Assembly: GCF_001613505.1 (NCBI RefSeq)
Contig: NZ_BDCM01000006.1
Location: 124,001-188,000, forward strand
Origin: Nocardia mikamii NBRC 108933
Lineage (GTDB): Bacteria; Actinomycetota; Actinomycetes; Mycobacteriales; Mycobacteriaceae
DNA length: 64,000 nucleotides
Direction: 5' to 3'
In this document: positions 58,349 to 58,669 of the stretch, one piece after another
Layout: every line of letters begins with the position of its first letter
Position numbering within the stretch: position 1 is the stretch's first letter
Program-made: the position numbers and the translations under genes
The notes under the pieces: model-generated
Databases searched by the model: none
What the model saw: the letters and a program-made list of their open reading frames with translations, nothing else
What the model was told of the DNA's origin: nothing

Positions 58349-58669
58349 TCAAAACGACTCACGAACGTTCGATCTCGACCATGAAGAAGTCGGCCTTGGC
58401 CGCCCCGCAGTCCGGACACGTCCAGTCGTCGGGAATGTCCTCCCAGCGCGTCCCCGGCGCAATACCCTCGTCCGGCCAGCCCTGCTCCTCGTCGTATTCG
58501 AAGCCGCACTGGATGCACTGAAAAATCCGGTAGGGCCGACCCCGCAGTCCGGGCAGCACCAGTCGTCCGGCACCGACTCCCACGGGGTGCCCGCCGGAAA
58601 CCCTTCCCGCGGAGCGCCTTTCGCCTCGTCGTAGACGTAATCACAGACAGGGCAACGAAAAGCACTCAT
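58349..58669 (-). CDS. rubA: Rubredoxin RubA, C-terminus replaced by out-of-frame tail
   Basis: RubA starts MSAFRCPVCDYVYDEAKG after GGAGG and runs correctly through DDWCCPDCGV, so all four iron-binding cysteines are present. The usual end (about 12 residues of REKxDF type) is missing; the frame then reads about 60 residues that are rubB in the wrong frame, stopping at 58349. So rubA is a complete rubredoxin core with a foreign tail. A -1 slip at GGATTTTTC (58521-58525 region) would join it to rubB. Confidence 0.72.
   Translation of the reverse strand: MSAFRCPVCDYVYDEAKGAPREGFPAGTPWESVPDDWCCPDCGVGPTGFFSASSAASNTTRSRAGRTRVLRRGRAGRTFPTTGRVRTAGRPRPTSSWSRSNVRESF
58359..58583 (-). CDS. rubB: Rubredoxin RubB, 5' end lost and merged out of frame with rubA
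   Basis: The conserved part YRIFQCIQCGFEYDEEQG ... DDWTCPDCGAAKADFFMVE shows both CxxC knuckles and the RubB C-terminus. The normal start, MxxYKLFQC, is missing: the frame enters directly from rubA coding sequence, with no gap. Possible starts are GTG 58583 and GTG 58559, both inside rubA and in another frame. It may be translated from one of these or by frameshifting from rubA. RubB passes electrons from rubredoxin reductase to AlkB. Confidence 0.75.
   Translation of the reverse strand: MGVGAGRLVLPGLRGRPYRIFQCIQCGFEYDEEQGWPDEGIAPGTRWEDIPDDWTCPDCGAAKADFFMVEIERS

Follow-up and report, generated by a model that had tools for sequence, protein, structure and literature searches.

The alkB cluster described here raises the question of whether two rubredoxin genes that run into each other out of frame encode a fused protein, or whether their junction has another origin. 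The window (i.e., the whole stretch of 64,000 nucleotides that was analysed, G000:C6:124001-188000) comes from a Nocardia close to the N. nova group, and its AlkB is 96-98% identical to the AlkB of N. cerradoensis, N. elegans, and N. nova. The genes lie on the minus strand, in the order alkB, rubA, rubB, TetR regulator, and second alkB-like gene (Table 1), with no reductase gene between them, as in a partial alkB cluster of the AlkB2 type. With NCBIfam at an E value of 0.001, no family was assigned to either AlkB, and the other three proteins gave only matches below the cut-off. RubB refers here to the second rubredoxin (PF00301), not to rubredoxin reductase. Elsewhere in the window, a tandem repeat occupies 38493-38588 (25-bp period, 3.8 copies, 92% matches).

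Table 1. Coordinates of the alkB cluster, its rubredoxin junction, and the sites of the repeat unit in the same genome.
Feature	Position	Strand	Basis
alkB-like alkane monooxygenase gene	58737..59993	-	PF00487; 96-98% identity to three Nocardia species
MIRU-like 71-bp unit, one copy, in the alkB/rubA interval	58673..58740	-	BLAST, covariance model
Mini-ORF within the alkB/rubA unit, 23 codons plus stop, stop overlapping the rubA start	58669..58740	-
rubA frame in its present state (rubredoxin up to CPDCGV, followed by 62 wrong-frame residues)	58349..58669	-	Pfam
Breakpoint (GT common to both ends of the missing stretch)	58539..58540	-	comparison with relatives
Five T's, belonging to rubB codons	58521..58525	-
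rubB (second rubredoxin), PYRIFQC to stop, without start codon	58359..58535	-	PF00301
TetR-family regulator, next in the cluster	57687..58352	-	PF00440, PF18556
Second alkB-like gene without rubredoxin, adjoining the cluster	56225..57382	-	PF00487
Unit sites, full form	C15, C24, C6, C21, C9:336173, C14, C3:395275, C3:361206, C22:31783
Unit sites, variant or truncated	C4:192547, C8, C4:218023, C22:184517, C3:674206, C9:57864
Unit sites lacking the form	C4:279226, C3:724943, C4:126124, C3:274745

The rubA-rubB junction in the window and in related Nocardia

The rubA gene opens at ATG 58669, reads MSAFRCPVCDY...CCPDCGV, and continues free of stops to 58349, giving 106 residues, 62 of them past CPDCGV. 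Both CxxC motifs are kept, and the R, E, K, and D that are at least 90% invariant just after CPDCGV are lost, in a 21-row alignment made of the window and 20 proteins chosen by hand from 120 listed. The rubB frame, from PYRIFQC to VEIERS and a stop ending at 58359, is offset from rubA by 2 mod 3 (-1), extends without a stop back to 58640, and encodes a whole rubredoxin domain. The sequence-only reading had described a merge of rubA into rubB in another frame, with RubA normal to CPDCGV, RubB recognisable from PYRIFQC, a -1 offset, a scrambled rubA tail, and no rubB start, and the reading of the frames bears out each of these points. A protein search with the scrambled 106-residue frame, limited to candidates of about 58-186 residues, gave none that covered more than 64% of it among the best 120 of 230 matches.

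An alignment with the alkB operons of related Nocardia, which the sequence-only reading had proposed as a check, gave an intact rubA tail with a stop and a separate rubB in all ten relatives of the N. nova clade that were compared (G112, G121, G002, G122, G124, G064, G035, G165, G153, and G123). The merged form was present in none, nor did any of the ten share the arrangement with an established RubB start, the outcome that had been named as speaking against the proposal. Five of them carry a junction sequence identical to records L035-L039. The distance from the first RubA Cys to the first RubB Cys is 137 in the window, compared with 173-315 in the relatives (173 in G112 and G153; 176 in G064; 244 in G035, G002, G121, and G124; 247 in G123; 253 in G165; 315 in G122). 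The steps of 71 (173, 244, 315) reflect zero, one, and two copies of a 71-bp unit. In the relatives without the unit (G112, G064, and G153), the rubA stop and the rubB start overlap as a 4-nt GTGA, and GGAGG or a close variant is present at the relatives' rubA-rubB junctions shown. The window is 36 bp shorter than G112 and G153, which have the bare 4-nt stop-start overlap, and 107 bp (36 + 71) shorter than G035, G002, G121, and G124, which have one spacer unit. What is missing compared with the relatives comprises the C-terminal codons and stop of rubA and the ribosome-binding site and start of rubB, and the ends of the missing stretch share only 2 bp (GT). Besides, among 45 rubA-rubB pairs from 34 Nocardia genomes, matched by hand from the match list after dropping matches without a listed partner, the gap is 11 bp in the window and 47-118 bp in the other 44; the single pair from another genus has a gap of 35 bp.

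Based on these comparisons, the junction is probably a recent deletion private to the window's strain, as represented by one assembly, that would leave rubB untranslated. The event would be recent because the rubB codons are nearly unchanged, with three synonymous and no nonsynonymous differences from G112 and likewise from G002, and two of each from G035. Such conservation would also be expected if the junction were an error or if RubB were somehow still produced. The lost piece may have measured 36 or 107 bp, both sizes being compatible with the mixed nearest relatives: the TetR gene is nearest to G035 (one unit, 98.0%), then G112 (no unit, 97.4%) and G002 (one unit, 96.4%), the alkB identity to G035, G112, and G002 is 96.1-96.5%, and the rubA part is nearest to G064 (no unit, 98.5%).

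Such a deletion would have taken the end of rubA together with the initiation signals of rubB, and also the 71-bp unit if the ancestor had one. The -1 offset would be inherited, as the two genes normally overlap by the 4-nt GTGA, and a unit of 71 bp (3n+2) would preserve this stop-start overlap. Ribosomes leaving rubA are predicted to terminate at 58349, ten bases beyond the end of rubB, and stop-start coupling into rubB would therefore fail. RubA would carry a foreign 62-residue tail instead of the conserved REKxDF strand. Contig C12 of the same genome has an intact rubA-rubB pair next to an AlkB frame (G000:C12:135817-136192; L032, L034), and the rubredoxins of this pair may serve the AlkB of the window. 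By the measure used for the 45 pairs, the gap in the C12 pair is 82 bp, and neither BLAST nor the covariance model matched the repeat unit there. Overall, the merge resembles an ordinary deletion at the level of the strain, and it calls for caution before such junctions are read as frameshift fusions, given that an overlapping stop-start pair leaves a -1 offset.

Alternative explanations of the merge

Our confidence in each explanation is given singly, and the explanations overlap. We consider it unlikely, while still worth weighing, that the merge arose in sequencing or assembly and that the junction of the strain itself is normal. The intact relatives, the rubB without decay, and the lack of a scrambled-tail protein among the matches mentioned above all agree with an error, and the genome contains several similar copies of the unit, a repeat of a kind that can trouble short-read assembly. 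However, both breaks lie in unique coding sequence with only the 2 bp in common, a collapse of the alkB-rubA copy onto one between rubA and rubB would delete rubA itself, and the junction lies on a 593-kb contig in an assembly of 42 contigs that is 100% complete. Repeat collapse as the cause was judged unlikely from the sequence, the breaks being outside the repeat. The sequence-only reading had warned of an indel, and this warning was apt.

It is quite improbable that RubB is still made from GTG 58583 or from another start inside rubA, as a protein of at most 74 residues. The open frame back to 58640, the complete rubredoxin domain, and the conserved rubB codons would suit such a start, but the rubB frame contains no ATG, and AGGAGG is absent from the 15 bases before GTG 58583, GTG 58559, the CTG codons, and ATT 58526, while the relatives' junctions do have GGAGG or a near variant.

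The sequence-only reading had further suggested a di-rubredoxin made by a -1 frameshift at the five T's (within GGATTTTTCAG, 58528-58518), for which the offset, the T run near the junction, and the existence of di-rubredoxins such as Pseudomonas AlkG could speak, but this part did not stand and is scarcely credible: the two frames differ by 2 mod 3 and do not form one open frame with two domains, the offset is that of the GTGA overlap, and the T run is ordinary rubB coding sequence, identical in six of the ten relatives, all with separate genes, and different in the other four (G122, G153, G165, and G123), so that neither the merge nor a slippery site is conserved. We rejected the frameshift fusion, as offset and T run are both inherited, and return to the deletion as the preferred explanation.

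A repeat unit at gene junctions with a site-matched stem

The spacer unit of the relatives' rubA-rubB junctions also occurs between alkB and rubA, the window included, where the TGA of alkB overlaps the GTG (58740) of a mini-ORF by 4 nt. It resembles the mycobacterial interspersed repetitive units (MIRU), whose founding paper is reportedly that of Supply in 1997. BLAST with the unit gave at least 25 matches in the window's genome (G000) at an E value of 0.001 (40 of 144 candidates scored), and 80 of 150 Nocardia genomes, G000 included, carry it (E value of 1e-6, 6 candidates scored per genome). A covariance model (E value of 0.01, 150 candidates scored per genome) found 28 copies in G000, 51 in G123, 16 in G112, 25 in G035, and 27 in G002. 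In the wider family, 17 of 301 genomes matched by BLAST, two of them outside Nocardia (G192 and G198), and 13 of 201 matched by the covariance model under stricter filters, three of them outside Nocardia (G192, G198, and G308); in G198 the model matched 21 times, at a 68-bp period (likewise 3n+2), and the match in G308 is weak (E value of 3.2e-4). The unit is not a general feature of the family, since at least 184 of the 201 genomes had no match at the settings used. An Rfam scan of five loci gave no match on the unit; the sole match (L183:525-580) fell outside it and scored below the gathering threshold.

The 25 matches in G000 correspond to 19 sites, which by reading comprise nine of full form, six variant or truncated, and four lacking the form (Table 1). 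In the full form, a long upstream frame ends at (A/G)TGA, where a mini-ORF of 23-25 codons begins, and a long downstream frame starts at the end of the mini-ORF or at most 17 nt away, at some sites with a 1-nt TGATG overlap. The unit is thus a short, dispersed, intergenic repeat with tandem copies, and at nine of 19 sites its mini-ORF shares about 4 nt with the stop before it and with the start after it.

Related genomes also differ in presence and copy number of the unit at one and the same site. Three sites were traced in 12 relatives, with the units counted by eye. At C21 (found in 11 of 12), the site is empty in G064, contains one to three units in G035 and others, and is degenerate in G123. 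The C14 site (found in all 12) is empty in G112 and G123 and holds one unit in G035, G002, and G064, two in G121, G122, G124, G153, and G010, and no clear unit in G145 and in G165, whose locus is clipped and was given an offset guessed by script. The third site, C9a (12 of 12), has no unit in G002, G064, G121, and G145, one in G035, G112, and G122, two in G124, G165, and G010, and remnants in G153 and G123. At filled sites, the local sequence around GGAGG and TGA occurs twice, once on each side, as expected of a target duplication. In G000, the C14 unit (G000:C14:249135-249202, L183) lies between two genes that, judging from their sequence, we take to be a histidine-kinase-like gene followed by a response-regulator-like gene, and this placement parallels that of the MIRU in senX3-regX3.

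The twelve bases surrounding the first start codon pair with an internal arm of 12 nt in a site-specific manner. Across 16 sites of G000, 10.94 of the 12 positions pair, compared with 9.29 for permuted arms, a value reached by none of 20,000 permutations; in a larger set (231 loci, with 79 different copies recognised by the pattern and 45 different arm pairs) the figures are 11.38 and 10.00, reached by none of 5,000, the permutations in both cases treating related copies as separate. Sliding one arm by 1-3 bases lowered the mean over copies from 11.53 to 3.2-5.9. In a hand-picked set of 29 out of 44 copies (three rows in which no end was recognised had been dropped at the 44-copy step), 47 cells were changed on both sides, compared with 13.6 after shuffling (none of 500 shuffles reached this), although the independent compensations are fewer than the cells counted because the copies are related. 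Seven of the 12 stem pairs had a change on both sides, a count reached by five of 500 shuffles; none of the 500 reached any other measure. The slide control applied to this set preserves the relatedness of the copies but favours the given structure. A second small hairpin had no compensated pair in the same 29 copies. RNAalifold found the stem unasked and added two further G's of the ribosome-binding site to it, and in G198 the same stem is formed, as seen by eye, with other letters.

Based on these features, we propose, with a confidence that only somewhat exceeds our doubt, that Nocardia and at least one more genus contain a mobile MIRU-like element of 68-71 bp. The element would insert at stop-start junctions and duplicate the junction, so that the mini-ORF carries ribosomes across, and its internal arm would be complementary to the local ribosome-binding and start site. 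The arm would have been copied from the target during insertion, or it would have been favoured by later selection as a lock that opens only to a ribosome coming from upstream. The function of the element would probably be strict translational coupling. The mini-ORF start would open only to a ribosome coming from upstream, which the mini-ORF would hand on to the next gene, and therefore an insertion would do little harm. This junction element matters more than the merge, as a MIRU-like, probable coupling repeat with empty and filled sites and strong site-by-site covariation. With it, two questions would become testable: how repeats of this kind spread while operons stay intact, and whether the proportions of adjacent gene products depend on them.

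Comparison with known systems

Like AlkG of Pseudomonas, the window has two rubredoxin domains side by side, but these are not in one reading frame, and the relatives have separate genes. The AlkB2-type partial cluster, as described in the available part of PMC11854999, likewise combines alkB, two rubredoxin genes, and a TetR gene without a reductase, and in N. asteroides, according to the same part, a further alkB (alkB0) adjoins a cluster of this kind, as at 56225-57382 here. The window differs from that cluster in that its two rubredoxin genes are merged out of frame.

The MITE-like repeats ERIC, RUP, and NEMIS, according to excerpts of PMC2229807, are likewise small and dispersed and may carry reading frames and stem-loops. 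They measure about 100-200 bp and have terminal inverted repeats, whereas the Nocardia stem joins the start site to an internal arm.

The closest likeness is to the MIRUs, which excerpts of PMC12548453 present as apparently mobile repeats with an ORF coupled at -4 nt, and whose sizes, tandem variation, and senX3-regX3 case are treated in excerpts of PMC4213456 and PMC2734929. Judged by these excerpts, both are short interspersed and tandem repeats at gene junctions, with a mini-ORF coupled to its neighbours at -4 nt, a copy number that varies between relatives, and a length of 3n+2 (77 and 53 bp in MIRU, 71 and 68 bp in the Nocardia unit). The likeness drawn here is one of features, and the Nocardia unit differs in its hosts, which are Nocardia and one or more further genera of the family. 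Among the matches listed, literature titles named no MIRU-like element in Nocardia, and the extracts of the MIRU literature held no description of a site-matched arm. Compared with the MIRU descriptions in these extracts, the Nocardia unit stands apart by an internal arm whose pairing partner, wherever the unit is inserted, is the local ribosome-binding and start site.
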